Assembly: GCF_001475545.1 (NCBI RefSeq)
Contig: NZ_LDQC01000068.1
Span: forward strand, 1-52,985
Length of the DNA: 52,985 bases
Direction: 5' to 3'
Origin: Curtobacterium luteum
GTDB lineage: Bacteria; Actinomycetota; Actinomycetes; Actinomycetales; Microbacteriaceae
Below are positions 2,601-16,364 of the stretch, one piece after another (the first letter of the stretch is position 1; every line of letters starts with the position of its first letter). The notes under the pieces are model-generated. The model was not told the origin of the DNA. It searched no databases and was given only the letters and a program-made list of their open reading frames with translations. The translations under genes and the position numbers were made by a program.

Positions 2601-2749
2601 TCTTCACCCCCCGGACCGTGCGGGGAGGAGCTGCTCACCGTGTGAGCGGCGGATGAGTGGGAGGGCGAAGAGGCATTCGGAGGATCGTCCACAGTGCCCA
2701 TCATCGTACCGGGTGGGCGTCGGGAAGCCGAGAGGACGTACAGGACGGG

Positions 2750-3832
2750 TCAGGCGGTCACCCGGGCCCGGTGGTACTGCTGCGGCTCGTAGTCCACACG
2801 CACCCCGAGCTCCACCGCCGCGCGCAGGGCGAACGACGGGTCGCGGAGGAACTCCCGGCCGACCATGACGACGTCGGCCTGCCCGGTCGCGACGACCTGC
2901 TCTGCCTGGAACGCCTCCGAGATCATCCCGACCGCGATCGTCCCGATCCCCGCCTCGCGCTTGACCGCCGCGGCGAACGGCACCTGGTAGCCCGGGCCGA
3001 CGGGGATCGGCGCGCTCGACACGTTCCCGCCCGTCGAGACGTCGGCGAGGTCGGCGCCGTGCTCGGCCGCCCACCGCGCGACCTGCACGGTCTCGTCGAG
3101 CGTCAGGCCGCCGTCGACCCAGTCGGTCGCGGAGAACCGGACGACGACCGGGAAGCCCTCGCCGACCTCGGCGCGGACGGCGTCGAGCACCTCGAGGAGC
3201 GCGCGGGCGCGGTTCTCGAGCGATCCGCCGTAGTGGTCCTCGCGGTGGTTCGACAGCGGGGAGAGGAACTGGTGCAGCAGGTAGCCGTGCGCGGCGTGGA
3301 GCTCGACGAGGTCGAAGCCGGCGTCGACCGCGCGACGGGCGGCTGCGGCGAAGGACAGTGCGACGACCCGGACGTCCTCGGCCGCGAGCTCGCGGGGCTC
3401 GGCGTAGCCGTCGAAGGCATCCGCCGAGGGGGCGACGGTCTGCCAACCGCCCTGCTCGACCGGCACCGATCCGTGCTCGGACTCCCACGGGCGGAAGGTC
3501 GAGGCCTTGCGGCCGGCGTGTGCCAGCTGGATGCCGGCGGCCGCGCCCTGCGAGTGGACGAAGTCGACGATCGGACGGAACGCGTCGCGCTGCTCGTCGT
3601 TCCAGAGCCCGAGGTCCTGCGGGCTGATCCGCCCCTCGGGGACGACGCCCGTGGCCTCGACCACGACCGCGCCGGCGCCGCCCTTCGCGAACGACCCGAG
3701 GTGCACGAGGTGCCACGGGGTCGGGACGCCGTCCTGGGCCTCGACCGAGTACTGGCACATCGGGGACACCCAGATGCGGTTGCGGACGGTGAGGTCGCGG
3801 ATGGTGATCGGCTCGAACAGGACGTGCGTCAC
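2750..3832 (-). CDS. NADH:flavin oxidoreductase, Old Yellow Enzyme family (YqjM-like)
   Basis: This 360-residue FMN-dependent ene-reductase has a TIM-barrel fold. Signatures seen are SPMCQYS near the N-terminus, QLAHAGRKAS, the substrate-binding HAAHGYLLHQFLSP with NHREDHYGGSLENR, and the FMN-phosphate-binding region near VGREFLRDP. The short thermophilic-like (YqjM) class fits the CQYS motif and the length. It would reduce activated C=C bonds with NAD(P)H; the physiological substrate is unknown. The start is a GTG at 3832 that overlaps the stop of the upstream HAD gene (GTGA), so the two are translationally coupled. Confidence 0.92.
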   Translation of the reverse strand: MTHVLFEPITIRDLTVRNRIWVSPMCQYSVEAQDGVPTPWHLVHLGSFAKGGAGAVVVEATGVVPEGRISPQDLGLWNDEQRDAFRPIVDFVHSQGAAAGIQLAHAGRKASTFRPWESEHGSVPVEQGGWQTVAPSADAFDGYAEPRELAAEDVRVVALSFAAAARRAVDAGFDLVELHAAHGYLLHQFLSPLSNHREDHYGGSLENRARALLEVLDAVRAEVGEGFPVVVRFSATDWVDGGLTLDETVQVARWAAEHGADLADVSTGGNVSSAPIPVGPGYQVPFAAAVKREAGIGTIAVGMISEAFQAEQVVATGQADVVMVGREFLRDPSFALRAAVELGVRVDYEPQQYHRARVTA

Positions 3833-5421: not shown

Positions 5422-5519
5422 CGTTGCAGACGCGGGCAGCCCGTGGCGACGAGGACCGACGTCGCGGTCGTCGCACGACAGCGGGCAGGTCGTTCCGCTG
5501 CGGTGGACGCGAGCACACG

Positions 5520-5565
5520 ACGGCCGGGAGGCACGGGTCGGGCCCGCACCGCGCCTCCCGGCCGT
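5520..5565. repeat. REP-like palindrome
   Basis: Arms ACGGCCGGGAGGC (5520-5532) and GCCTCCCGGCCGT (5553-5565) are perfect complements. It is a member of the GGAGGC...GCCTCC intergenic family seen elsewhere in the window. Confidence 0.65.
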
Positions 5566-5628
5566 CATCCGGTCACCTCCGACGCCCTTGTCGGCGTTCC
5601 CGCACGGCTGGGTCGGTACGCTCGTCCG

Positions 5629-6927
5629 GTGCAGCGGAGAGCCTGGGTCGAGCCCGTCCTGTTCGGCGCGGCGTTCGTCGCCGTCCACGCCGTGCTGTGG
5701 TGGCTCACGACGACCTCCGGCAACCTGCCGCTCGGCGACGTGACGATCACCTACCGTCGCTGGATCGAGACCGGTCAGCAGTCACACGTCTGGGTCGGCG
5801 TCGACCAGGTGTGGGTGTACCCGATCCTCGCGATCGTCCCGATGGCCGCGGCGGCGCTCGGCGGTGTCGCGTCGATCGGGACCGGGTGGCTCGTCCTCAT
5901 GGTGCTGCTCGACGCCGTCGTCTGCGTGGTGCTCTGGCGGTTCCGGGCCCGCGTCGGCGCCGTCCGGATCCGCGTGGTCTGGTGGTGGCTCGTCTTCCTG
6001 CTCGCCCTGGGTCCGATCGCGCTCGGCCGCATCGACACGGTGGCGACCGTCCTCGCGCTCGCCGGGCTCGCGTTCGTGGTGTGCCGGCCGGCGGTCGCGT
6101 CGGTGCTGTTCACGCTCGCGGCGTGGACCAAGGTGTGGCCGGCGGCGCTCGTCGGGGTCCTCGTGCTCCTGCGTCGCGGACACCGACGCGGCGTGCTCGC
6201 GGGTGCCCTCGTGACGACCGCGCTCATCGTGCTCGTCGACGTGCTGTACGGCGGTGCAGCGTACCTGTTCTCGTTCGTCGGGCAGCAGAGCGGCCGTGCC
6301 CTCCAGATCGAGTCGCCGCTCGCGACGCCCTTCATGTGGGCGGCGGCCTTCCGTGCGCCCGGTGCGGCCGTGTACTACGACCGGGAGATCCTGACGTTCG
6401 AGGTGTCCGGCGCCGGGACCCACGCCGCCGCCGCGGTGTCGACGCCGCTCATGGCGCTCGTCGTGCTCGCCGGGGTGGTCCTCGCGCTCCTGGCCGTGCG
6501 GCGCGGCGCACCCCGGACGCAGGCGGCGCCGCTCCTCGCGCTCGTGCTCGTCGCCGCGCTCGTCGCGACGAACAAGGTGGGGTCGCCGCAGTACATCGGT
6601 TGGTTCGCGGTCCCCGTGGTGTGGGGCCTCGTCGCCGGACGGGCGAGCGCACGGCGCTTCCTGCCGATCGCGCTGCTCGCGCTGCCGACGGCGTTCCTGA
6701 CGCAAATGATCTACCCCGGGTACTACGACCAGGTCCTCACCGTGCAGCCGTGGATCCTCGTGGTGCTGACGCTCCGGAACGTGCTCGAGGTCGTCCTGCT
6801 CGTGTGGGGGATCGTCGGACTGGTGCGGCTCGGGTCGGGCGCCTCGTTGTCGGGTGCCTCGTCGTCGGGCGGCCCGTCCTCGGGCGCGGCGCGCTCGGTG
6901 CGTCAGCGGGGCAGGATGGACGCATGA
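5629..6927 (+). CDS. GT87-like polytopic membrane glycosyltransferase
   Basis: This is a 432-residue integral membrane protein with roughly ten hydrophobic helices and a first periplasmic loop containing GDVTITYRRW, typical of the DUF2029/GT87 polyprenol-phosphate-sugar-dependent mannosyltransferase family. WTKVWPAALVGVLVLLRRGH and NKVGSPQYIGWF also match conserved family regions. The likely role is adding mannose or another sugar to a cell-envelope glycan or lipid; the acceptor is unknown. The start is GTG at 5629 because TACGCT (5617-5622) lies six bases upstream, giving a leaderless mRNA. The stop overlaps the thiamine-binding gene start (ATGA at 6924-6927), so the two are coupled. Confidence 0.82.
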   Translation: MQRRAWVEPVLFGAAFVAVHAVLWWLTTTSGNLPLGDVTITYRRWIETGQQSHVWVGVDQVWVYPILAIVPMAAAALGGVASIGTGWLVLMVLLDAVVCVVLWRFRARVGAVRIRVVWWWLVFLLALGPIALGRIDTVATVLALAGLAFVVCRPAVASVLFTLAAWTKVWPAALVGVLVLLRRGHRRGVLAGALVTTALIVLVDVLYGGAAYLFSFVGQQSGRALQIESPLATPFMWAAAFRAPGAAVYYDREILTFEVSGAGTHAAAAVSTPLMALVVLAGVVLALLAVRRGAPRTQAAPLLALVLVAALVATNKVGSPQYIGWFAVPVVWGLVAGRASARRFLPIALLALPTAFLTQMIYPGYYDQVLTVQPWILVVLTLRNVLEVVLLVWGIVGLVRLGSGASLSGASSSGGPSSGAARSVRQRGRMDA

Positions 6928-7069
6928 TCGTCGCGTTCTCCGTCGCACCGTCCGGTGGTCCCGCCGCAACCGAGGACGGCTCCGTGCTCGACGCCGTGGC
7001 CGCCGCGGTCCGGGTCGTCCGCGAGAGCGGTCTCCCGAACCGCACCTCGTCGATGTTCACCGAGCTCGA

Positions 7070-7074
7070 GGGGA
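7070..7074 (+). repeat. Left attachment core (attL)
   Basis: GGGGA occurs here and again at 16203-16207. Joining host sequence left of this copy to host sequence right of the other restores an uninterrupted reading frame (ELEG then EWDE). Flanks differ on the element side, as expected for a serine integrase, which recognises non-identical attB and attP and shares only a short core. The exact crossover dinucleotide cannot be fixed within the five bases. Confidence 0.8.
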
Positions 7075-7097
7075 CGAGAGTAGCGCAAATGGACATG

Positions 7098-7104
7098 AAG
7101 GAGG
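7098..7104 (+). promoter_or_regulatory. Strong ribosome site of the element-borne thiamine-binding gene
   Basis: AAGGAGG ends seven bases before the ATG at 7112. It lies inside the element but within the truncated host frame, so ribosomes finishing that frame at 7112 can re-initiate here. Confidence 0.75.
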
Positions 7105-7111
7105 CCGCGTG

Positions 7112-7417
7112 ATGCTAGTCGCGTTCAGCGTTTCACCGAGTGGCAACGGCCGCGAGGACGGCTCGGTGCACGACGCCGTTGCGGCGGCCGTCCGGATCGT
7201 GCGCGAGAGCGGGCTCCCGAATCGCACGACGTCGATGTTTACGGAGATCGAGGGTCCGGACTGGGACTCGGTGATGGACGTCGTCAAGCGGGCGACGGAG
7301 GCGGTCGCACCGTTCGGGAGCCGCGTGTCGCTCGTGCTGAAGGCAGACATTCGCCCGGGCTACTCCGGCGAGCTCGACGCGAAGGTACAGCGTCTCGAAG
7401 CGGAGCTCGACAGTTAG
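7112..7417 (+). CDS. MTH1187-family thiamine-binding protein, intact element-borne replacement copy
   Basis: This 101-residue protein covers the whole family domain (MLVAFSVSPSGNG to the C-terminal AKVQRLEAELDS). It parallels the split host protein along its full length, with about four in five residues identical by eye, and has AT-richer codons, so it is a diverged homologue and not a recent duplication. Family members are small ferredoxin-fold proteins that bind thiamine or HMP-like ligands. The ATG overlaps the stop of the truncated host frame, with AAGGAGG seven bases upstream. It has no visible promoter of its own and probably depends on the host operon. GTG at 7109 is in the same frame but lies closer to the ribosome site. 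Confidence 0.92.
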   Translation: MLVAFSVSPSGNGREDGSVHDAVAAAVRIVRESGLPNRTTSMFTEIEGPDWDSVMDVVKRATEAVAPFGSRVSLVLKADIRPGYSGELDAKVQRLEAELDS

Positions 7418-7528
7418 GAGCGGAGTCATCTGATGCCAGAGGTGCGGGGTCGTTGCTGTTGCAGCGACCCGCGGCTCGGAAGGCGCGGCTCGAAGCCGAC
7501 TTCAAAAATCAGGTGGCAGGGTGTCATT

Positions 7529-8074
7529 ATGGCATTGAGCGACCACCCGACGGCGGCGGACCGTGTGCAGCATTTTCTAGCTACTGTCTCCGATTACGAA
7601 CGCTTGAACGTTGCGATGCCGATCGGTAGGAGTATCAATCTGCTCGGTCACTCGGACGAAGCCGAGCGCTGGAAGGTGGTCACACACGCTCTGCTCCTCC
7701 GGAAGTACTTCGCGAAGACTGACAACCTGTACCTGACGGAAGTCGTCAGGGCGGCGCGTGCGTGCGTCGTAGGCGAAGACCTCCCGGCGCGAACATGGAA
7801 CGAGATGGAGCAAAACGTCGCCGTCATGCAAGGTGGGTTTGGAAGCTCGTTCGGAGACAGCCCGAAGGTGTATCAGGACGACGAACTGTTGATGGCGCAG
7901 CTCTATGGGCGGTTCCTGCACGGCGACTTCGGTAAGTGGCAGACCAGTGAGATGGCCGGGGACCGGGGGAGCGACACCGCGGTCTTCCACGCCACTGTCA
8001 ATCGGGCCGACCGGGTGTTGAAGCTCGCGCGGTGGCTTCGGCAAGGAGCCGAGGAAGGGCATCTAGCGTACTGA
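7529..8074 (+). CDS. Element-encoded protein of unknown function
   Basis: This 181-residue soluble protein starts MALSDHPTAADRVQHFL. I do not recognise a family. It is probably mostly helical, with RSINLLGHSDEAERWKVVTHALLLRKYF in the first half and a basic amphipathic end (NRADRVLKLARWLRQG). No transmembrane segment or nuclease motif is evident. The frame is open back to an ATG at 7433, but the added residues (RGRCCCSDPRLGRRG) look non-coding, and AGGTGG/CAGGG precedes the chosen ATG. Base composition is lower in GC than the host, consistent with acquired cargo. Confidence 0.65.
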   Translation: MALSDHPTAADRVQHFLATVSDYERLNVAMPIGRSINLLGHSDEAERWKVVTHALLLRKYFAKTDNLYLTEVVRAARACVVGEDLPARTWNEMEQNVAVMQGGFGSSFGDSPKVYQDDELLMAQLYGRFLHGDFGKWQTSEMAGDRGSDTAVFHATVNRADRVLKLARWLRQGAEEGHLAY

Positions 8075-8609
8075 CGCTGACCTCGTCGTCATCACGTTGT
8101 GGTGCTTCATGGCGGAGCGCCAGACGGAGGCCTAAGGCGGGTACCCGTAGTCGTAGCCATTCAGAATGAGGATGACACCCGGTTGCGCCGGACCGCCCCG
8201 TCCTGGCCGTGGGCCTGGCATTCTCGGTGTGGACATATGACCGGATCACGAAGCGCCCGGCGTCCACTTCTCAGCGCCCCCAGCTTTTGACGAGAGGCTG
8301 GAGGGCGGTGCCGTCGATGACGCTACGTAGCGGAGTGTCGAAGCGTCGAGGCAGTCGTGTCACGTGCCGCCGACGCCGAACGGCAGAAGGCCCCCTCGCA
8401 AAAGCGAAGGGGCCTTCTGGTGTCAGTGCGACTACCGGCGGTCGCGAATTACTGCGCCTGCCGCGGCGGCGAGGACCGCGAGCGCAGTACTCGTCACAAC
8501 CTGCTGCCGCTCCCACACACCTAGGGCGTGTCCGGTCGAACCGTGCTGCGGCGCGGAGCTGCGGTAGCCCGGCGGCGAAAGTTGAGGCAGAATCAAGGCG
8601 AGGGAAGAG
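8075..8609. other. 535-bp region without a convincing gene
   Basis: Frames here have no recognisable domains or good ribosome sites. The one clear structure is a hairpin at 8384-8419. The promoter of the PD-(D/E)XK-like gene probably lies after it. Confidence 0.6.
8384..8419. terminator. Strong hairpin, probable terminator
   Basis: A 16-bp stem of CAGAAGGCCCCCTCGC against GCGAAGGGGCCTTCTG has one mismatch and an AAAA loop. No T-run follows on either strand. It separates the first two cargo genes. Confidence 0.7.
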
Positions 8610-10076
8610 GTGGCAGTGTACTTTTCAGAGGCCTACGAGATCGAGCTAGGGACCGACGACGACTGGTTCGATCCGATCCTGGAGGAGGACACGCAGCTTT
8701 TTGTCGATCCGTTCCTCGTCTTCGCAGAAACAGAGGGCAGGTGGGCGGATTGTGATGATCTTTTAAGCGGCCACTTCGAGAGGGGCTTCCGGCTACTCGC
8801 CGGACATCACCAAAACCCCGAAAGCGTTCAGTATCGCAAGACAATCGACATGATGCTCTTCCCAGAGCCGTCTGAGATTGGTCTGGGTTACGTAGCTTCA
8901 GGCTCCAAGGGGTCGGGCACGGGGCGGGGATTTGCGCGGCGAATAGTCGGCGCAATGGCTCTCGCAATAGAAGCAGGGCTCGCTGATCTCCATCGCTTCG
9001 AGGAACTTAGCCTGCTCGTCGAGAAAATCGGGCGCGATCGGATATCGGACATTTCGTGCAATCTGCTGAAACAGCGACTGGTGAGATATACGCAATCCAT
9101 CTGCGAGCGCCACGGGATTTCTCTGGAGAAGTTCAAGGTGAAAAACGCTTCTTTTGACGAGCAGCGTCTTCGTTGGGTTGAATTGGAGGTGGATTTACCC
9201 AAAAATCCGTCTACCGGTGCTCCAGTGATTTTGATCCCGAAGCGTTTTCTTCGTGAGTTGCCGACGCTGAACTCCTCAGACTGGTGGGACTGGGTTGAAC
9301 CTAGCTTTCGCGATGACGTCAATTGGGATACTAGTCGTAAGCTTTCAAAAGCAGACATTGTTGACTTGGCGCGCAAGCACCCAGACCTCGTGCGGGAGTG
9401 GACTGAGGCTCGGAGTGGCGATGAGCCGCACCCTTATGACGTCGATCGAGACCCCGAGGGATTGCACAGTTGGCAGGCTCAGGCGCGGGCGGCTGCATCA
9501 AGCGACCCGATTGACGATTCGATATCGCGACTGAGTTTGGATGAAGTGGTCGGGCTCGTCAATGAAAAGTTCCGACACTTTGTGGAAGATCGCGGTGGAT
9601 GGGAGTTGCTCTGGAATGATGACACGTCGGCGCCAAAGCGCGAGACTTCAATTCAACTGCTCTACCGTGGAGTGGTCGAAGCCTACTGCGAGGCGGCGCA
9701 AGTATTCGTAGATCGTGAAGTCAATCTCGGGCGAGGGCCCGTAGACTTCGTGTTCACTGGATCGACCCGTCGATCTCTGCTGGAGATAAAGAAGTTCAAG
9801 AATGGGCGGTTCTGGGATGGGCTTGAGCATCAATTGATCTCCTATCTGAAAAGCGAGCGCTGCAAATCCGGGTGGTTCCTCGCGGTGCGATTGTCGGACT
9901 CTCGGACAGAAGCGCGGCGCCATGCCGCTCTTTCCTCCCGCACTAACGCCCTTAGGAAGTCGACTGGCTTCGACTTGCACAGCCTGGCGATCGACGCTCG
10001 AAGGCCGAAATCGGCGAGCAACCTTGGTCACGGCGAAGAGTCCGAAGCGCCCGATGTTGATCCAGAGGAGTTCTAG
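8610..10076 (+). CDS. PD-(D/E)XK nuclease-like cargo protein
   Basis: This 488-residue protein has N-terminal text WFDPILEEDTQLFVDPFLVF (19-38) that I associate with a widespread uncharacterised family. It contains FPEPSEIGLGY (84-94), GSGTGRGF (101-108) and DRISDISCNLLKQRL (143-157). The C-terminus shows a plausible PD-(D/E)XK core: acidic E370, GPVDF with D379, LEIKK with E392 and K394, then HQLISYLKS (408-416) as the usual trailing Q/Y motif. A role in anti-phage defence or DNA cleavage is inference from the fold and the location. GC is clearly lower than the host. The start is GTG at 8610; GTG at 8616 is possible and better spaced from AGGGAAGAGG. Confidence 0.72.
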   Translation: MAVYFSEAYEIELGTDDDWFDPILEEDTQLFVDPFLVFAETEGRWADCDDLLSGHFERGFRLLAGHHQNPESVQYRKTIDMMLFPEPSEIGLGYVASGSKGSGTGRGFARRIVGAMALAIEAGLADLHRFEELSLLVEKIGRDRISDISCNLLKQRLVRYTQSICERHGISLEKFKVKNASFDEQRLRWVELEVDLPKNPSTGAPVILIPKRFLRELPTLNSSDWWDWVEPSFRDDVNWDTSRKLSKADIVDLARKHPDLVREWTEARSGDEPHPYDVDRDPEGLHSWQAQARAAASSDPIDDSISRLSLDEVVGLVNEKFRHFVEDRGGWELLWNDDTSAPKRETSIQLLYRGVVEAYCEAAQVFVDREVNLGRGPVDFVFTGSTRRSLLEIKKFKNGRFWDGLEHQLISYLKSERCKSGWFLAVRLSDSRTEARRHAALSSRTNALRKSTGFDLHSLAIDARRPKSASNLGHGEESEAPDVDPEEF

Positions 10077-10296
10077 CTGCCATCCGCGGACGGACTCTCG
10101 CCCTAACCACTGCAGAAGGCCGGTAGGCGCACCCGCCTGCGTATCGGAAGCCAGGAGGGGCGGAGCGCATTGGCCGAGTCGGAAGGCGGTCATGGTCGCG
10201 AGGCAGTGCCGCGAGGGGTGGGGTGAGGTATTCCTCGAATCGCCACGTGCATTGGTGTCGTGAACTGCATCGGCGCTGAAGCGTCTATGCGCGCAA

Positions 10297-10794
10297 ATGT
10301 CAGCATCTGAGATCGACACGCGGGGACTAGGGAGTATCGTGAATTTTTGGGGCACAATCACTGCGGGAGACTGGTTGACGCTCGCCGTGGCGGTGGTGGC
10401 AGGGCTGGGTAGCGGTTACGTCGGCGCGCGCATAGCGGCGAAGTCTTCGGAGGAGCTCGCTGCATTGGCGCGTGATGGGGAGGCGGAACACGCTCTCCGT
10501 AATTTCCAACGCGGCCTCCGCGACCGTGCGATCGAGCTAGAGGTTGAGCTCACACAGGACGGTGATGTTGTGTTCACTCGGACGTCGCTCGACGCGCTCG
10601 GTGAGTTGCGCGCGCTGGCGTACCCTCACGTTTCTCGTCTGGGCAGGGAGAGTCATACGCTCGTTGAAAAATCGACGTTCAGCGGGGACAGCTATGGATC
10701 AAGCGATCCGACGCTCCCGATCAACAATCTTTGGGATCGCGCGGAGAGGTTGAAGCGCGCGATCGATGCGGCATTTCCCCCGGATAATGCTTGA
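10297..10794 (+). CDS. Small membrane-anchored protein of unknown function
   Basis: This 165-residue protein has one hydrophobic segment near residues 28-50 (LTLAVAVVAGLGSGYVGARIAA). A charged, probably helical cytoplasmic part follows (SSEELAALARDGEAEHALRNFQRGL) and ends in LWDRAERLKRAIDAAF. No family is recognised. It follows the PD-(D/E)XK-like gene in the same direction after a 220-bp gap with no clear gene, and it shares its low GC. The two may form one cargo module, a nuclease plus a membrane component; this is inference only. The ribosome site before the ATG is weak. Confidence 0.65.
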   Translation: MSASEIDTRGLGSIVNFWGTITAGDWLTLAVAVVAGLGSGYVGARIAAKSSEELAALARDGEAEHALRNFQRGLRDRAIELEVELTQDGDVVFTRTSLDALGELRALAYPHVSRLGRESHTLVEKSTFSGDSYGSSDPTLPINNLWDRAERLKRAIDAAFPPDNA

Positions 10795-10845
10795 AACCCT
10801 CAGACCCGCGCTTGCCGGGAGTCGCTATGCCGTTTCGGTAGAGCG

Positions 10846-10878
10846 GGGTGGGGGGTGAGGGGGAGTCACCCCCCACCC
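10846..10878. terminator. Bidirectional terminator hairpin
   Basis: A 13-bp perfect stem (GGGTGGGGGGTGA-type arms at 10846-10858 and 10866-10878) with a seven-base loop sits between the convergent ends of the small membrane-protein gene and the HNH gene. It marks the border between the element's cargo and phage modules. Confidence 0.8.
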
Positions 10879-10898
10879 TCGCGAGCACTGGGCCCAGC

Positions 10899-11201
10899 TC
10901 AGACGAGGCCCGGATGCGGCTCCGGTGCCCAGGTGGGGGCTGCCTTCGGTCGTCGTGCCGAGGCACCTTCCGCGCTGCTCTTGCGCGCGTGATGCCAGCG
11001 GCACAGAGCGTGGAGGTTGTCGAGCGAGTGGTCGTCGCCGTGCTCGACGTGGTCGCAGTCTGTAGCGTGCTCGTTGCATCGCCCGCCGAGACTGTCGAGT
11101 GCTTGGCACCACCGCCTCGCGTGGGCCAGGACAGCGGCACGGCGGCGGCGCCAGTCCGCAGGCAGGCGCGAGCGCCGGTCGCTCGTCGCCCAGCCACTCA
11201 C
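10899..11201 (-). CDS. HNH endonuclease, phage type
   Basis: This 100-residue protein has an HNH core: WCQALDSLGGRCNEH, then DCDHVEHGDDHSLDNLHALCRWHHARKS, with H51 as the first His of the motif, N62 in the middle and the closing HH near 70-71. Small HNH proteins of this kind sit in packaging or head modules of phages and of capsid-forming satellites, where they assist terminase. The start is GTG at 11201 overlapping the previous stop (GTGA), so it is translationally coupled. It is the last gene of the leftward operon. Tail residues are Pro/Ala-rich. Confidence 0.85.
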   Translation of the reverse strand: MSGWATSDRRSRLPADWRRRRAAVLAHARRWCQALDSLGGRCNEHATDCDHVEHGDDHSLDNLHALCRWHHARKSSAEGASARRPKAAPTWAPEPHPGLV

Positions 11202-11536
11202 CGGCGGTCGCCCTCCCACTGAGCGACGGCCCCCTCCAGGGTGCGGAGGGACCCTTCGAGGGCCTGGGCGGTGCGCTCCAGCATGAGCTCTGCCTCGGCA
11301 GCGCGCCGAGCAAGCGTGAGCCGGTCGATCGACGCGACGGTCTCGCCGACGGGGTCCTTCACCCCGAGGGCCGAGGCGAGGGCGAACGAAGCACGACCGG
11401 CCGGTGGCGAAGCCATTGCCTCGTCGACCGCGGCGAGAGCCAATGCGAGTCGCAGCGCGGCGTCGGCGTGGCGCCGAACCTGGGCCGGAAGCGGGGGCCG
11501 GGACGGCGTCGCTCGGCTGAGGACGTCGGCCGTCAT
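11198..11536 (-). CDS. Small helical phage-operon protein, unknown
   Basis: This 112-residue protein is Ala/Arg/Leu-rich and predicted almost entirely helical (HADAALRLALALAAVDEAM; LARRAAEAELMLERTAQALEGSL). It has no recognised domain. It sits between a scaffold-like gene and the HNH gene and overlaps both by four bases (ATGA and GTGA), so all three are made as one coupled unit. The position is where phages often place small head-completion or terminase-small-subunit genes, but I see no helix-turn-helix to support the latter. Confidence 0.72.
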   Translation of the reverse strand: MTADVLSRATPSRPPLPAQVRRHADAALRLALALAAVDEAMASPPAGRASFALASALGVKDPVGETVASIDRLTLARRAAEAELMLERTAQALEGSLRTLEGAVAQWEGDRR

Positions 11537-12057
11537 CGGACGCCCGCCCGTGCTCGCAGCGCGGCGGCGACTGTCGCCGGGCTGAACTCCGGTGTCGGCT
11601 CGCCACCGTGGCCCGGCGTGAGGTCCGGGGCTGGGCGGACAGGGACTTCGGCGCTTGGCGTCGGCTCCTCGGCCGGTGCTGGGGCTGCCGCGGCTCCTGC
11701 GCGAGAGAGCTTTTCCGCCTTCGCGAGGATCACCTCCTCGGTGTCGCCGGAGAGGAACTCGACGAGCTCCTCGGCGATGGAGTGCTTCCGGAGGGCGCGC
11801 TCGGTCCAGAGCGAGCGCTCCGCGTCGGCGGCGCGCTTCTCGGCGGCGGTGAGCTTGCCCTCGGGGTCGGCGTCCTTCGCGGCCTTCTCTGCGTCTCCGC
11901 GCGCCTGGCGCTCGGTCGCGAGCTCGGTCGTGAGGGTGTCCTTCTCGCCCTGGAGCTTGTCCTTATCGGCGCGGAGGTTCTGGACGAGGGTCCAGGCGCG
12001 CTCGGCGTCGAAGTCGTCGCCCCACGGCGGGGTCGAGGTGTCGGTCGAATCGGTCAT
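11533..12057 (-). CDS. Probable capsid scaffolding protein
   Basis: This 174-residue acidic protein has a long heptad-like coiled coil at about residues 20-100 (LRADKDKLQGEKDTLTTEL, then AEKRAADAERSLWTERALRK). A short helix HSIAEELVEFLSGDTEEVILAKAEKL follows, then a Pro/Ala-rich linker and a C-terminal helix. This layout is typical of phage scaffolding proteins beside a major capsid gene. Here it is separated from the capsid gene by only a 91-residue frame. The ATG start is preceded by AGGAGGACAC. The stop overlaps the next gene (ATGA). Function is inferred from coiled coil and context. Confidence 0.75.
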   Translation of the reverse strand: MTDSTDTSTPPWGDDFDAERAWTLVQNLRADKDKLQGEKDTLTTELATERQARGDAEKAAKDADPEGKLTAAEKRAADAERSLWTERALRKHSIAEELVEFLSGDTEEVILAKAEKLSRAGAAAAPAPAEEPTPSAEVPVRPAPDLTPGHGGEPTPEFSPATVAAALRARAGVR

Positions 12058-12081
12058 TCTGTGTGTCCTCCTGGGACGCGA

Positions 12082-12104
12082 AAGCCCCGGACCTGCCGGG
12101 GCTT
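12082..12104. terminator. Hairpin between two leftward genes
   Basis: AAGCCCCGG (12082-12090) pairs with CCGGGGCTT (12096-12104). On the minus strand the stem is followed by TTTCG. It probably attenuates the operon between the capsid-side genes and the scaffold-side genes. Confidence 0.7.
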
Positions 12105-12117
12105 GGGGTGGGGTGAA

Positions 12118-12393
12118 TTACGCCTCGGACGTATGAACGGTCCGGCGCGTGTCGCTCTCGCGGTAGGCGCGGCGGGCGCGCGAGGCGGTGCGCTCGACGC
12201 GCTGCTCGGCGGCACGGCGTTCGCGCTCGAAGGCGAGCTCCTCGTCGAGGACGGTCTCCGGCGTGGTGCCGCGGCGCGCGGCCTCGGCGCGGAGGCGGGC
12301 CTGGGCCGCCGGAGAGACGTCGGCGAGGGAGCGCACGGGGTGAGCGCGCTCGACGGCCGCGACGACCGCGACGATGGTTTCGAGGTTCGGCAT
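12118..12393 (-). CDS. Small basic phage-operon protein, unknown
   Basis: This 91-residue protein (MPNLETIVAVVAAVERAHPV ...) is mostly helical and Arg/Glu-rich (EELAFERERRAAEQRVERTASRARR). It lies directly after the capsid gene, 11 bp from its stop, and shares the GGAG-type leader. No domain is recognised. It could be a head-decoration, connector or internal protein; position is the only clue. Confidence 0.6.
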   Translation of the reverse strand: MPNLETIVAVVAAVERAHPVRSLADVSPAAQARLRAEAARRGTTPETVLDEELAFERERRAAEQRVERTASRARRAYRESDTRRTVHTSEA

Positions 12394-12404
12394 GGGGTCT
12401 CCTA

Positions 12405-13298
12405 TCAGGCCGCGTTGGTCAGGACACGCACGGCGCCCGCGTCCGGCTTCAGGGCCACGGTGCCGTCCTCGTTGTCGACGGCGAGCGGCATGGCCGAGAC
12501 GCCGACGAACGCGCTCACGGTCGAGGTGTCGACGGCGAGGCTCGGGTCGTATGCACGGATGTGACGGAGGGCGAAGCCCTCGGCCTTCACGCTGGCTCCA
12601 TGCGGAGCCCCATCGGGCACACGCGGGGCGCGGACGACGAGGGCGAAAGCCTCGGGGATGAAGGCCACGATCTCGTCGGACGCAAGGCGCGTCGACTCGA
12701 CGATCTGGAAGCCGCGGACCTTGCCGTCGGCGTCGAAGGTCGTACCCGAGGAGCCGACCGGCCCGTCGAGGAGGTCCGTGTAAACGCCCGAGCCGACAGC
12801 GGCGATCAGGGTCGCCTCCGTGGGGACGCCGTTGTCGCGGAGCTGCTTCCGAATGGCCGTGAAGACACGTGCGGGGGCCGCCGGGTCGTAGGTGAGCTCG
12901 GTCGTCGGCGTTGCCTTCATCGTCGTGGCGACGGTGCGCTCGACGTAGTTCACGATCGAGTCCGCCTGCGGCAGGAGAATCTGCTTCGCGAAGTCGGTCA
13001 CTTCGAGGTCCATGTCACCCTCGGACAGCACGACGCCGTTGTAGGCGTGCGTGGAGAGCTTGACGTCGATCGACTGCTCGGTGATCGAGCCGCGGGTGAG
13101 CGGAGTCGTCGTGTCTTAGATGCCGCGGGTCTGCGCGGCAATCGCGCCAGGGACGCGAATCTTCACGGTGTCGCCGCTGCCGAGGTTGAACTCGGCTTCT
13201 AGGTCGCGGTGCAGGAGCGCGGCGAGGCCGAGCCCCTTCCCGACGAGCTCGGCGGCGGTCCCGGCGATATTGTCTGGCGTGAGCAGGGTGTTAGGCAT
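12405..13298 (-). pseudogene. P22-type major capsid protein, interrupted by an in-frame TAA
   Basis: The N-terminus MPNTLLTPDNIAGTAAELV, LAALLHRDLEAEF and GDTVKIRVPGAIAA match the P22 gp5-like HK97-fold coat family. After the stop the same frame continues through SITEQSIDVKL, DLEVTDFAKQILLPQADSIVNYVER and EAFALVVRAPRVP to a normal end, 297 codons in total. Codon 61 is TAA (13118-13116, minus). Nothing is shifted, so one base change would restore the protein. Options are a nonsense mutation that disables the head, a sequencing error, or internal initiation at GTG 13031. The 60-residue N-terminal piece alone cannot make a coat subunit. Confidence 0.82.
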
Positions 13299-13357
13299 GG
13301 GTTCCTAGAGGTAGGAGGACCGGGCGGCGGTTGCGCGTCCGGGCGCGGGTAGGTGGG

Positions 13358-13636
13358 TCAGACGCCGAAGAGGCGTCGGACGTGCGAGGCGATCTCGCGG
13401 AGCTCGGCGTCTGCGGCGGAGCGTGCGACGGCGTCTCCCCAGAGGGCCGCGGCGTCGCGATCGGCGAGGGCCTTCGTCTGGCGGAGCAGGAGGGTTGTTG
13501 CGGCGGCGTCGCGGGCCGAGTCGAGGTCGCGGTCGCCGCGGAGACGGGCGACGCGGCACGTCGAGTTGCAGTAGCGGGCCGTTGGGCGCCGATCGGCGGC
13601 AAGCCGGGCGCCACAGGTGGCGCATGAGCGGTTCAC
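13358..13636 (-). CDS. Small zinc-ribbon protein
   Basis: This 92-residue protein has a treble-clef-like Cys4 site CATCGARL...ARYCNSTCRVARLR near residues 5-32, followed by a charged helical tail ending SHVRRLFGV. Proteins like this are frequent in actinophages and may bind nucleic acid. The start is GTG at 13636, chosen because the Cys site lies at the N-terminus, TTGGAG sits about eight bases upstream, and a terminator hairpin (13680-13715) precludes a longer start. It lies 59 bp upstream of the capsid gene. Confidence 0.72.
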   Translation of the reverse strand: MNRSCATCGARLAADRRPTARYCNSTCRVARLRGDRDLDSARDAAATTLLLRQTKALADRDAAALWGDAVARSAADAELREIASHVRRLFGV

Positions 13637-13679
13637 GGTGGCGGCTCCAACGTTGGTAACGGAATGAGGGTCAGGAGAA

Positions 13680-13715
13680 ACGCCCACCCTCGCCGGGTAG
13701 GGCAAGGGTGGGCGT
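13680..13715. terminator. Hairpin terminator within the leftward phage operon
   Basis: ACGCCCACCCT (13680-13690) pairs exactly with AGGGTGGGCGT (13705-13715). It separates the early small-protein cluster from the zinc-ribbon/capsid cluster, so the latter may have its own promoter or be under antitermination. Confidence 0.7.
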
Positions 13716-13755
13716 CGTCCTCCGGGAGCGACCCCTTCACAAGCCCGAGGAGGGG

Positions 13756-13775
13756 TCGGAAGAGAAGGGGGCCAG
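13756..13775. repeat. Element-specific intergenic motif, copy a
   Basis: On the minus strand this reads CTGGCCCCCTTCTCTTCCGA. It matches copy c (16151-16170) at 19 of 20 positions, and its GAAGGGGGCCAGTGGCG part is identical to copy b (14503-14519). It lies just after the 86-residue gene stop. The function is unknown; operator, promoter or RNA-processing site are all possible. Confidence 0.7.
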
Positions 13776-13787
13776 TGGCGCGGCGAA

Positions 13788-14048
13788 CTATGCCTTCGGG
13801 CGAGGGCGCCGCCGACAGGACCGACAACGGCGTTCGAGGCCGTCTTCGGCCGTTGCGTCCGCGCCGAACCCCGAGAGGGGTTGCGGCTCGTTGCACCAGA
13901 CACACGTCTTCCGCGCCACTGCTCGGCGCCGCTGGCGGCGGGCAAGCCCCGCTAGGGCGATCGCGGTTACGACGCCGGGCTCGTCGGGGTCTTCGAAGGC
14001 GAGGGCGGCGCGCCGGATGCGGTCCTCGGGGGTGAGCTCGGCGCTCAC
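13788..14048 (-). CDS. Small Cys4 zinc-finger protein
   Basis: This 86-residue protein has an N-terminal helix (ELTPEDRIRRAALAFED), a basic segment (LARRQRRRAVARK) and a C-terminal Cys4 site CVWCNEPQPLSGF...LERRCRSCRRR. The spacing resembles phage HNH-like or recombination-endonuclease zinc sites, but no catalytic histidines are present. The GTG start overlaps the preceding stop (GTGA), so it is coupled. A role in DNA or RNA binding is inferred from Cys4 and Arg content. Confidence 0.72.
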   Translation of the reverse strand: MSAELTPEDRIRRAALAFEDPDEPGVVTAIALAGLARRQRRRAVARKTCVWCNEPQPLSGFGADATAEDGLERRCRSCRRRPRPKA

Positions 14049-14266
14049 TTCCCCGCTACCTTTCGTCGAGCTCGGCGGTAGACGCGTTGATAGCAGGTGG
14101 TGCAGCAAGGAACGCCGTCGACTGGGTCTGCTGGCGTGTACTCGCCGTCCGTGTCGCCATACCACCGCCGGGACGCGGTGACGCGGACGGCGGGACCGTA
14201 CGGGCCGCCGCGAAGTGCGCAGAGCTGGCAGGGCATGCCCATGTCGGCAACCCGAAGGCGGCTCAT
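14045..14266 (-). CDS. Small CxxC/CxxC zinc-ribbon protein
   Basis: This 73-residue protein has paired cysteine motifs CQLC (near residue 13) and CCTTC (near residue 54) around a central Tyr/Asp-rich stretch (RWYGDTDGEYTPADP), and a basic tail (RRARRKVAGK). It is a probable zinc ribbon with no assigned family. The ATG overlaps the stop of the 62-residue frame (ATGA) and its own stop overlaps the next GTG, making it the middle of a three-gene coupled cassette. Confidence 0.7.
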   Translation of the reverse strand: MSRLRVADMGMPCQLCALRGGPYGPAVRVTASRRWYGDTDGEYTPADPVDGVPCCTTCYQRVYRRARRKVAGK

Positions 14267-14451
14267 TCGTCACGGCCCCGTGACGGCAGTGACGAGGTGT
14301 CGCTCTCGCCCAGTCTCTCTACTTCTTGTTGACACCAAGAGAAGAGATAGGAGGCGGGCATTAGTCGACCACTTCCGTCACCGGACCGAAAGCGCGGCAG
14401 GCGCGGCGGATGGGCCGCGCGCAGGGGCGCGAGGGCGTTGGGTACCTGCAT
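14263..14451 (-). CDS. Small leader protein of the phage operon, unknown
   Basis: This 62-residue frame starts at ATG 14451 (MQVPNALAPLRAAHPP) with GAGAGAGAAG about four to thirteen bases upstream as a plausible ribosome site. It ends in ATGA with the next gene, which is the main reason to regard it as real. It contains YLFSWCQQEVERLGE but no recognised domain. It is the first gene after the integrase terminator and so probably follows the operon promoter. Confidence 0.5.
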   Translation of the reverse strand: MQVPNALAPLRAAHPPRLPRFRSGDGSGRLMPASYLFSWCQQEVERLGESDTSSLPSRGRDE

Positions 14452-14502
14452 GGTGCTTCTCTCTCTGAGTGTCCGCGGAGAGCGGAGGACTGGAACACAG
14501 AG

Positions 14503-14519
14503 GAAGGGGGCCAGTGGCG
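14503..14519. repeat. Element-specific intergenic motif, copy b
   Basis: GAAGGGGGCCAGTGGCG here is identical to 13764-13780. It lies 52 bp upstream of the 62-residue gene, in the probable promoter region of the leftward phage operon. Confidence 0.7.
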
Positions 14520-14630
14520 TCGAGCTGCTCATGCGCAATAGGAGCGCGAGCGCGCGGAGGCGCCTCTGGTGCGCGAGTCGACTCGGCGCCGCCGCCACCT
14601 TCGACACCTTCACCACCCCGGACACGACGG

Positions 14631-14662
14631 AGCCCCCTCGTTCCGGCGCGGAAGAGGGGGCT
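14631..14662. terminator. Integrase terminator
   Basis: AGCCCCCTC (14631-14639) and GAGGGGGCT (14654-14662) form a perfect nine-base stem 11 bp past the integrase stop. Confidence 0.75.
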
Positions 14663-14673
14663 ACGGGCGGCGA

Positions 14674-16128
14674 CTAGCGACGGTCGAACGCGAGCGATAC
14701 CCGCGCCGGGTCCCACTTGCCGCGCTGTTTTGCGTAGGCAAGCCCGATCACGGCGCCGCATCCGATCAGAAGCTCGCGGCGCCCGAGGTAGTCACGAGCT
14801 TCCCATTCCTCCGCAAACGATTTCCCCGTCTCGACGAGCTCAGACGTCGGGTCGCTAGGGACTGCGTCGAGACGGACCCGCTCAGCGTGCAGCTTCGTGA
14901 GTCGCTCAGCAAGTGCACGAATGTCGGCCCCGGGATGCTGGAGCTCTTCGGACGTGGTCCGGATCGCTTCTGTCACTCGCGCGAGCTCGCCTGTCTCCCG
15001 AAGTCGAACGCGTTGCTCGACGACGGCGTACCGACCGAAGACGGCGAGGAACTGCCGTTCGACCTCAGCCTCGACGCGGTCGCACTCCACGACGACTCCG
15101 CGCTCGCACTTGCGTCCCTGGGCGGACGCCTGGCAAGCGTAGACCGGCTTTCCCGCCGAGCGGCGACTCTTCGCAACGAGAGTGCCGTCGCATCCGGGGC
15201 ACGAGATCAAGCCCGACAGGACACGGGAAGCCTTGCGACGCCGACCTTCGGCGGTTGCCTCCGCGCGGCCCGGCGTCGGCGTCCGCTGCGTCAGCGCCCT
15301 GAGACGCTCGACCTCGTCGAGGGAGAGGATCGGCTCCCACTGCTGAACGGGCATGCCGTGCTCGTCTCGGAGCACCGTGGCAGAGCGGACCTTGCGCTTC
15401 TTACCGTCGGGCCCCTTCGCGTACTCCGTGCCGACGCGCACACGACCCAGGACGGCGTCGGAGCGGAGTAGGCGCTGAAGGGACGAGGCGCTCCACTGGG
15501 CCGCGCGACGGGGCTTGATCCCGGCCTCGTTCAGGCTCTTGCAGACCGCGTAGACCGATCGACCGCCGAGGACATGCGTGGCGGCGAGGCGGACCGCCGC
15601 CGCCTCCGCGGGGTCCGGCTCCAACGCTCGGCCGACTCCCGACGGGTGGGGGACCACCCTGTACCCGTAGGGCACAATTCCCCCAGGGAACCGGCCAACC
15701 GTTGGAAGGTGGCGGCGAGCGGACGAGACACGCGCGCCGATAGTGCGGGCCTCCATAGCGGCGAACACCTGAAGGATTTCGGCCATTGCGCGGCCCATCG
15801 CCGTGGTCGTGTCGAGCGATTCCGTGCAGGAAATGATTTGAAGCCCGGAGTCCAAGAGCAGACCGAAGTCCACAACGGACCGAGCCAAGCGGTCAAGCTT
15901 CCAGACGAGCACGGCGTCCGCTTCGCCACGGGCAAGGCGCTCACGGGCGGCGTTGAGGCCCGGCCGGTTCAGTCGTGTCCGGGTGGCTGAAACATCGTTG
16001 TCCTCCTCGATCCCGACGAGCTCCCAGCCGCGAGCCCGCGCTGTGTCGGCGATCGCCTGGCGCTGTCGCACTATTGCTGTGCTCTCTTCCGTGGCCCGGG
16101 ACAGACGGGCGTATCCAACTACTCGCAT
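14674..16128 (-). CDS. Large serine recombinase (integrase)
   Basis: This 484-residue protein has an N-terminal resolvase domain beginning MRVVGYARLSR (S10 the nucleophile). It includes IVRQRQAI, LNRPGLNAARERLARGEADAVLVW and KLDRLAR, then the AMGRAMAEILQVFAAMEA helix (E-helix region). A Recombinase domain follows with FPGGIVPYGYRVV and a zinc-ribbon domain (CPGCDGTLVAKSRR...YACQASAQGRKC). A C-terminal coiled-coil region (LARVTEAIRTTSEELQ; RALAERLTKLHAERVRLD) completes the layout of large serine integrases such as phiC31. The ATG at 16128 has GAGAGGAG five bases upstream; the frame is open 20 codons further, but those are not family-like. The gene lies 74 bp from the att core. Confidence 0.95.
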   Translation of the reverse strand: MRVVGYARLSRATEESTAIVRQRQAIADTARARGWELVGIEEDNDVSATRTRLNRPGLNAARERLARGEADAVLVWKLDRLARSVVDFGLLLDSGLQIISCTESLDTTTAMGRAMAEILQVFAAMEARTIGARVSSARRHLPTVGRFPGGIVPYGYRVVPHPSGVGRALEPDPAEAAAVRLAATHVLGGRSVYAVCKSLNEAGIKPRRAAQWSASSLQRLLRSDAVLGRVRVGTEYAKGPDGKKRKVRSATVLRDEHGMPVQQWEPILSLDEVERLRALTQRTPTPGRAEATAEGRRRKASRVLSGLISCPGCDGTLVAKSRRSAGKPVYACQASAQGRKCERGVVVECDRVEAEVERQFLAVFGRYAVVEQRVRLRETGELARVTEAIRTTSEELQHPGADIRALAERLTKLHAERVRLDAVPSDPTSELVETGKSFAEEWEARDYLGRRELLIGCGAVIGLAYAKQRGKWDPARVSLAFDRR

Positions 16129-16150
16129 GGGAGCTCCTCTCGACGATATG

Positions 16151-16170
16151 TCGGAGGAGAAGGGGGCCAG
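16151..16170. repeat. Element-specific intergenic motif, copy c
   Basis: TCGGAGGAGAAGGGGGCCAG differs from copy a at one of 20 positions. It sits between the integrase start and attR, so it may be part of the integrase promoter or an operator, or of the attP arm. Confidence 0.7.
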
Positions 16171-16202
16171 GTCGGCCCAACTGCTCAATGCCCGATCACA
16201 TC

Positions 16203-16207
16203 GGGGA
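16203..16207 (+). repeat. Right attachment core (attR)
   Basis: The second GGGGA core. Host reading frame resumes immediately (GGG GAG TGG GAC, encoding GEWD), continuing the split thiamine-binding gene. Confidence 0.8.
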
Positions 16208-16364
16208 GTGGGACGAGGTCATGGACGTCGTGAAGCGCGCCACCGAGGCCGTCGCGCCGTTCGGGACGCGGGTCTCGCTCGTGCTCAAGGCCGACATCCG
16301 GCCCGGGCACACGGGCGAGCTCGACGGCAAGGTCGAGCGGCTCGAGGCCGCGCTCGGCGACTGA
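16203..16364 (+). pseudogene. 3' fragment of host MTH1187-family thiamine-binding protein
   Basis: The frame encodes GEWDEVMDVVKRATEAVAPFG to the C-terminal VERLEAALGD and is the exact continuation of the fragment at 6924-7070. An ATG at 16188, inside the element, opens a 58-residue frame through this piece, but it has no evident ribosome site and would give half a domain. It is the host relic on the right of the element and uses host-like high-GC codons. Confidence 0.93.

Follow-up and report, generated by a model that had tools for sequence, protein, structure and literature searches.

A small serine-recombinase element of Curtobacterium luteum splits a thiamine-binding protein gene and probably replaces it with a target-altered copy

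The window analysed here, a stretch of 52,985 nucleotides from Curtobacterium luteum (assembly GCF_001475545.1, contig NZ_LDQC01000068.1), contains an integrated element of 9,132 bp that cuts a single-copy host gene for a thiamine-binding protein (PF01910) in the middle and that carries a complete copy of the gene it breaks. Our work supports the idea that the element breaks the host gene and, at the same crossover, supplies a complete allele with an altered target motif as a functional replacement, an interpretation that we regard as probable, though not as certain. At the level of the sequence, it is carried by the split gene, by a copy that is the sole intact one found in the genome, by the place and direction of this copy, its separate ancestry and the purifying selection that acts on it, by the recurrence of the arrangement in other bacteria, and by the altered motif at the crossover. 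Transcription of the copy from the host promoter, translational coupling to the remnant of the host gene, functional replacement and protection of the copy against the integrase would make sense of this arrangement. Genomes and loci are designated below by working labels (G and L numbers). The features of the split locus are as follows:

6924..7072, plus strand: 5' part of the host thiamine-binding gene, 50 residues up to the Glu-Gly at the crossover, with a PF01910 match
7071..7072, plus strand: left junction, inferred 2-bp crossover GG (junctions compared: G000, G043, G064, Subtercola and Cryobacterium)
7073..7112, plus strand: arm of the element attachment site (attP), in which the host frame stays open for 12 codons up to TGA 7110-7112; holds AAGGAGG at 7098-7104
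7112..7417, plus strand: complete copy of the thiamine-binding gene, 101 amino acids, PF01910
7250..7270, plus strand: altered target motif in the copy, EGPDWDS versus native EG[E/D]W[D/N]E
16203..16204, plus strand: right junction, inferred crossover GG (junction comparison)
16203..16364, plus strand: 3' part of the host thiamine-binding gene, PF01910 positions 44-91, E 9.0e-10
7073..16204, no strand assigned: whole integrated element, 9,132 bp between the crossovers

A PF01910 search of the whole genome (3.59 Mb, 99.99% complete) found three places only: the 5' piece of the host gene (6930-7097), a full domain in the copy (7118-7396), and the 3' piece (16203-16343). When the two host halves are rejoined they give a protein of 102 residues that resembles others of the genus. 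In the motif Glu-Gly-Glu-Trp-Asp-Glu, the crossover GG forms positions one and two of the glycine codon, and a short GG is common to the left and right junctions (attL and attR) in all five large-integrase insertions for which both junctions are available, as assigned by comparison; in Cryobacterium the stretch common to both junctions is longer, about 15 bp. An earlier, sequence-only reading of this DNA had described a host stub of 62 residues. The length of this frame (6924-7112) is correct, but the stub is not wholly of host origin: 50 codons belong to the host and the final 12 (TRVAQMDMKEAA) are encoded by the attP arm. The 62-residue product matches PF01910 with 36.3 bits (E 5.7e-9, profile positions 1-45). 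As the fused frame halts after 62 codons, the target is not restored to one complete gene.

The complete copy begins precisely where the stub ends: the stub TGA overlaps the ATG of the copy (7112-7114) by one base (TGATG), and AAGGAGG lies seven bases upstream of this ATG. All coordinates given previously, for the host frame, AAGGAGG, the TGATG overlap and the copy, could be confirmed, as could the claim of a full-length diverged copy at the stop codon of the truncated frame: The copy scores 88.1 bits against PF01910 (gathering threshold 24.9, E 3.9e-25) and covers positions 1-91 of 92. Against TIGR00106 it scores 41.5, below the cut-off of 54.7. It is 80% identical to the rejoined host protein, and no other intact PF01910 gene was found in the genome; thus, the proposal that integration swaps one allele for another is supported at the sequence level.

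The arrangement is not confined to the window. In total, we found 11 split loci including the window, in at least five genera, and at each of them a full copy adjoins the junction on the promoter side; 10 of the 11 copies are in the direction of the host gene, the exception being Cryobacterium sp. PH31-L1 (G255). Three overlapping sets of genomes were searched. In the genus set, 64 of 66 genomes (C. luteum included) have PF01910: 60 with one match and four with the split arrangement, while two have none. In three of the four (G000, G043 and G064) stub, copy and 3' remnant are present; in G036 there are stub and an intact copy, the host 3' half is gone, and no relative of the integrase was found in the 20-kb stretch read. 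The family-wide set (228 of 299 genomes with a match) added G255 and G272, and the order-wide set (248 of 297) added G438, G442, G589 and G599. Subtercola boreus P27444 came from a scan of named genomes with the integrase alignment. In the family-wide set, all six genomes with multiple matches (C. luteum included) were followed; G074 has two adjacent PF01910 fragments, whose adjacency points to a frameshift as the probable cause. For the order-wide set, 15 of the 20 new genomes with multiple matches were followed, giving four split loci, one unclear case (G586) and ten second homologues elsewhere; G459, G511, G591, G648 and G657, all of one genus, were excluded since the only second homologue in their congener G374 was a distant one. 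No gene split by an element without a copy was found among the matches listed, of which the single partial ones were checked in part.

Two kinds of recombinase are involved. The large serine integrases of G000, G043, G064, Subtercola and Cryobacterium are related, with 56-96% identity. G438, G442, G589 and G599, from two other families, contain another type of element, about 2.9-4.4 kb in length. Its serine recombinase is small and of the resolvase type, and the element enters the same gene about 11 bp upstream of the large-integrase crossover. Only G589 has an intact small recombinase, those of G438, G442 and G599 being broken or partial; the copy is intact in all four, starting 13 bases after the stub stop. 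No intact recombinase was recognised in G272 when its list of open reading frames was inspected by eye, so that G036 and G272 are the two of the 11 split loci in which a recombinase was not found. Replacement of a whole gene behind a mid-gene break had been called uncommon; for this gene this view has to be revised, since the arrangement recurs with copies from four clades and two kinds of recombinase.

Some further observations touch on this distribution. The small-recombinase elements at L093, L094, L095 and L096 are closely related to each other and occupy the same gene, with oxidoreductase-type cargo as named by eye; as they occur in two different families, recent spread is indicated. In G256 (L064, reverse complement, about 2052-3186) the gene is intact and shows the native motif, and a 3' remnant 700 bp downstream of it starts about at the crossover, possibly the scar of an element that was lost after repair of the gene. 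In G586 (L097), an intact gene is directly followed by an apparent serine recombinase (1108-2163), and a diverged, 5'-truncated second copy lies 10 kb downstream (11511-11760). An order-wide search with the integrase (E <= 1e-80) retrieved three of 396 genomes: that of the window itself and the distant G391 and G700; PF01910 was not found in 15 kb around the G391 match. The integrase scan of genome contigs gave seven loci. Three distant Streptomyces loci were left out, and three of the four examined have PF01910 pieces; none was found at the fourth integrase match, Microbacterium L075. When viral contigs were searched with the copy protein, the one match was a host 3' remnant at the contig edge behind L078, and of nine viral records searched with PF01910 only L078 matched; L079, L082 and L083 begin at the integrase.

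A further finding concerns the motif at the crossover. We aligned 69 chromosomal genes (29 from the 30 genus loci returned and 40 hand-picked from the family-wide and order-wide sets), nine rejoined host genes and 14 element copies; the first two groups together are the 78 natives, and the copies include three phage copies, with five further copy-bearing phages kept outside the alignment. All 69 chromosomal genes have EG[E/D]W[D/N]E at the crossover. The copies have EGPDWDS (the four Curtobacterium-type copies), EGEWAE (Subtercola), EGDWPE (Cryobacterium), EGSWDE (G272), EGTWDE (the four small-recombinase copies) and EGDWDA (the three aligned phages); of the other five phages, Ascela has EGDWDS and four have EGDWDA. 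In columns 77-81, just past the serine-integrase crossover, all 14 copies have at least one residue that is absent from the 78 natives. Leave-one-out analysis of the natives gave one novel residue inside these columns and 71 outside. Counted by clade, four of four copy clades versus one of 78 natives have a novel residue there (Fisher p = 2.9e-6), a value to be read with the fact that the five-column window was picked after viewing the sequences, while the crossover that anchors it had been fixed from the junctions. Thus, the copies look recoded at the integrase target, as judged from the alignment. At the DNA level, divergence at the crossover ranks 1, 4, 1 and 2 of 77 windows in the Curtobacterium-type copies; erasure of the bacterial attachment site (attB) at the DNA level in all copies was also considered and is unsupported outside these four.

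The window copy does not share a recent history with its own host gene. In a maximum-likelihood tree of 300 nucleotides the copies form four clades. Each has an ultrafast-bootstrap support of 100; one holds the four Curtobacterium-type copies, another joins Cryobacterium and Subtercola, a third unites G272 and the small-recombinase group, and the last consists of the three phages. A sister relationship of the window copy to its own host gene is rejected by the approximately unbiased (AU) test (p = 8.6e-9). The phylogeny of copies and chromosomal genes, which the sequence-only reading had proposed as a check, therefore shows that the window copy did not arise by recent duplication of the host gene; recent tandem duplication is ruled out by this value and by the single match in 60 of 66 genus genomes. 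A single origin of all copies was rejected by the AU test (p = 0.012) and not by the Shimodaira-Hasegawa (SH) test (p = 0.085). The AU and SH values are those of the fuller tree search; a faster search gave AU values of 0.107 for a Curtobacterium origin and 0.0012 for a single origin. Four pairs among the Curtobacterium-type copies (the window and three relatives) have nonsynonymous divergence (dN) of 0.027-0.045 and synonymous divergence (dS) of 0.41-0.80; for the window copy and that of G043, dN is 0.045 and dS 0.749. These ratios indicate that the window copy is under purifying selection. The window copy groups with the copy of G064 (support 98), whereas the window integrase shares 96% identity with its counterpart in G043 but only 62% with the one in G064. 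Since the closest relatives differ, copy and integrase modules seem to have been exchanged between elements. Copies are also intact where the element looks immobile, in G036 and in G438, G442 and G599.

Phages provide a further view of the same arrangement. A tblastn search with the copy protein matched ten phage records, nine of which represent eight distinct Arthrobacter phages. In these eight, among them Elezi and Nitro, a thiamine-binding gene immediately adjoins the serine integrase gene and is separated from the core of the inferred attP by about 30 bp. Among 52 records with an integrase that matches that of phage Yang at E <= 1e-100, nine bear a copy. The attP core GAGGGCGC is common to copy-bearing and copy-less phages, with changes in L086, and the codon that follows it differs: It is TGG in all eight copy-bearing phages, where the predicted stub frame continues as far as the copy and overlaps it by ATGA, and TGA or TAG in 14 of 15 copy-less cases (12 phages and three viral contigs), with CGA in Lizalica as the exception. 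Phage Powerpuff has the same core with TGA next, and the copy protein found no match in it. Copy-bearing phages thus have an open frame through attP, whereas in nearly all copy-less cases a stop closes it. These counts are not independent because the phages are related; the copy-bearing phages occupy two places in the integrase tree, where the deep branches are poorly supported. In the copy-less phages L066-L070 and L144-L149, an apparent terminator hairpin, seen by eye, stands directly past attP where others carry the gene. The tenth record, MT835505 (L046, 4001-4327), is an unverified gut or metagenomic phage whose thiamine-binding gene shows the motif of native genes; the 8 kb read yielded no related integrase, and the stretch may be bacterial chromosome.

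Based on these data, we propose the following mechanism. The serine integrase would insert the element into the middle of the gene for an MTH1187-type thiamine-binding protein. The host gene is probably read within an operon because its start overlaps the stop codon of the upstream open reading frame (ATGA, 6924-6927):

5443..6927, plus strand: upstream host open reading frame, TGA 6925-6927 overlapping the ATG (6924) of the split gene; no match in an NCBIfam search

The host promoter and the upstream operon would then read the 50-codon stub, the in-frame attP tail and finally the element copy. Read-through from the host into the copy is expected since a few tens of bases separate attP from the copy downstream of it, and translation is probably coupled since the stub stop touches the copy start. 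Ribosomes would thus pass from the stub to the copy, as proposed in the sequence-only reading, and 13 of 13 co-directional junctions (10 integrated ones and three predicted from phage attP) fit this idea: the stub stop ends from 7 bases inside to 13 bases before the copy start. A scan of 6700-8700 for sigma-70 promoters found no promoter-like and no terminator-like site; as shuffled sequences gave only 0.2 promoter-like sites on average, its power is low. The altered codons next to the crossover should prevent the integrase from cutting the copy, both on the element and in the lysogen. This would explain the alteration of the motif because the circular element could recombine with itself if it held an intact attB next to attP. 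Serine integrases require attP and attB to differ, so that an attP carrying the matching end of the target gene would hardly be open to them, whereas delivery of a whole gene would be.

Several observations weigh against this interpretation. Grouping the Curtobacterium-type copies with the native genes of the genus is not rejected (AU p = 0.37), and an ancient origin of the window copy within the Curtobacterium lineage is possible. The RNA fold at the junction of the window is not unusual (z = +0.56 and +0.48). In shuffled junction arms, a stop fell within about the same range in 10-85% of the trials, depending on the case, and since such arms often give a similar stop position, the coupling of stop and start is only weakly supported in statistical terms. 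The Cryobacterium copy (L063, 1999-2292, reverse complement coordinates) is reversed and reads towards the junction; it therefore cannot use the host promoter and needs another one. As to the motif, there is the late choice of the five columns, and novel residues do occur in the 76 further core columns, in the four small-recombinase copies only (two each); in these copies, moreover, the altered residue is about five codons from their own crossover. In terms of DNA divergence at the crossover, the other ten copies rank 18-55 of 77 windows, and the three aligned phage copies, like 67 of the 78 natives, still conform to a loose attB pattern. Finally, Powerpuff forms stable lysogens in A. globiformis (PMC8758107). 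As Powerpuff lacks a copy, the host gene may be dispensable in the laboratory, if the phage uses it; the main text of that paper gave no match for attP, attB or thiamine, and a mapped attB for Powerpuff was not found.

Three other explanations have to be weighed. The copy might be ordinary cargo that helps the phage or satellite itself, for instance in vitamin handling, its homology to the target being a by-product of the place where it was picked up. We consider this unlikely, even though the reversed Cryobacterium copy must have its own promoter, most related phages manage without a copy (nine of the 52 integrase-matched records have one), and the attP core is common to 15 copy-less attP sequences and to Powerpuff, with changes in L086. 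Cargo acquired in this way would not account for the fact that every accepted copy sits either where an element has attached and broken this gene or next to a matching attP core, that 10 of 11 integrated copies are directly behind the stub in host direction, and that the altered residues are mostly at the crossover; our searches were centred on the PF01910 target gene, so distant PF01910 copies elsewhere on phages could escape them.

The copy could also be part of a switch, in which integration installs a differently expressed or regulated allele and so changes the thiamine-binding activity of the lysogen. This is related to the concept of regulated gene integrity, reportedly put forward by Mageeney et al. 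in 2020, in which integration breaks a host gene and the break itself is the regulation. In both cases the host gene is broken by integration, but the window element brings a replacement gene, which to our knowledge is not part of that concept. An identity of 80% between the copy and the rejoined host protein speaks for a switch, as does the departure of the copies from the native genes in an otherwise near-invariant motif. Outside this motif, however, there is no novel residue in the conserved core columns, and two solved relatives from outside the actinobacteria differ in the crossover motif, suggesting that function can be kept; a switch thus seems improbable to us. That the copy is a functionless duplicate from faulty excision or tandem duplication, with the stop/start overlap arising by chance, is very improbable: shuffled junctions do often yield a similar stop position and a distant Curtobacterium-lineage origin is not rejected, but a recent duplicate is, copies on different elements have a dN far lower than their dS, the copies are still open where the recombinase is broken or missing, and 60 of 66 genus genomes have a single match.

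Replacement of the broken gene thus being the interpretation that we prefer, the closest precedent is the tmk island of Pseudomonas putida KT2440, in which an island gene of different ancestry has been proved by experiment to replace a broken essential gene (PMC10653934). There too, the gene is broken mid-gene, the last gene of the island takes over its function, and the arrangement occurs in several genera; judged by PF01910 homology, the window likewise appears to combine a mid-gene break with a gene of the same function at the element edge. The tmk island differs in having tyrosine-type integrases and an essential target (PMC10653934), whereas the window has a serine-recombinase element with a recoded homologue behind the stub. 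Integrative elements usually follow another rule, according to PMC10111431: attP carries the matching end of the gene and restores the target. Prophages in Bifidobacterium dnaJ2, for example, rebuild the gene end (PMC6109161). The function of the entered gene is preserved there, as we propose for the window, but those elements leave one fused gene, whereas in the window the gene stays broken and a second, complete gene stands behind the stub. The Arthrobacter phages (Yangvirus, cluster AZ) share with the window an integrase of about 60% identity and, in eight of them, the thiamine-binding gene beside the attP core; they differ in their size of 43-44 kb and in that most relatives are copy-less. 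Nowhere in the open-licence literature that we searched did we find a report of a complete, target-altered copy that follows a break in mid-gene.

The element itself is small and prophage-like. Its other recognised genes are:

8610..10076, plus strand: cargo related to the candidate defence family PDC-M36A, PADLOC E 9.7e-37; also PHROG 30194
10899..11606, minus strand: HNH endonuclease, PHROG 333, E 1.4e-28
11533..12057, minus strand: head scaffolding protein, PHROG 15003 and 233
12405..13298, minus strand: major head protein gene, interrupted by an in-frame stop; both pieces match PHROG 283
14674..16128, minus strand: large serine integrase beside the right junction, Pfam Resolvase, Recombinase and Zn_ribbon_recom, PHROG 95 integrase E 7.4e-94

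The integrase has the make-up of the large serine integrases: The three domains are in one protein, of a class of about 480-500 amino acids, its frame has no internal stop, and attP and attB differ outside the short crossover. With 9.1 kb, as compared to 42-44 kb in related phages, the element is not a complete temperate phage, and head and scaffold were the only structural genes recognised among the ten element proteins submitted. As regards a possible satellite of phages with capsid genes of its own, the head gene has an intact relative in the G043 element (L034, 3752-4645), and this G043 protein found no match at E <= 1e-5 in L035, L036, L063, L073, L065 and L078. The cargo related to PDC-M36A may be read from the host promoter as well since it is downstream of the copy in the same direction.

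Our findings suggest a second way in which an integrating element can spare its host: the broken gene is replaced by a version that the element's own recombinase should not cut, a natural parallel to the recoded-rescue designs of synthetic genetics. It is tempting to go one step further, although we do so tentatively and the idea may well not hold: Serine-recombinase elements may have repeatedly evolved recoded rescue, in which they deliver an entire allele that is changed at the attachment motif. Function would be kept in the lysogen, the target would be closed to the same class of elements, and after decay of the element the host would depend on the foreign allele, so that such elements would be agents of allele replacement at core loci. 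The principle should then extend to other protein genes, and it predicts altered full-length copies of the target at attP in other serine-integrase elements that sit in protein genes.

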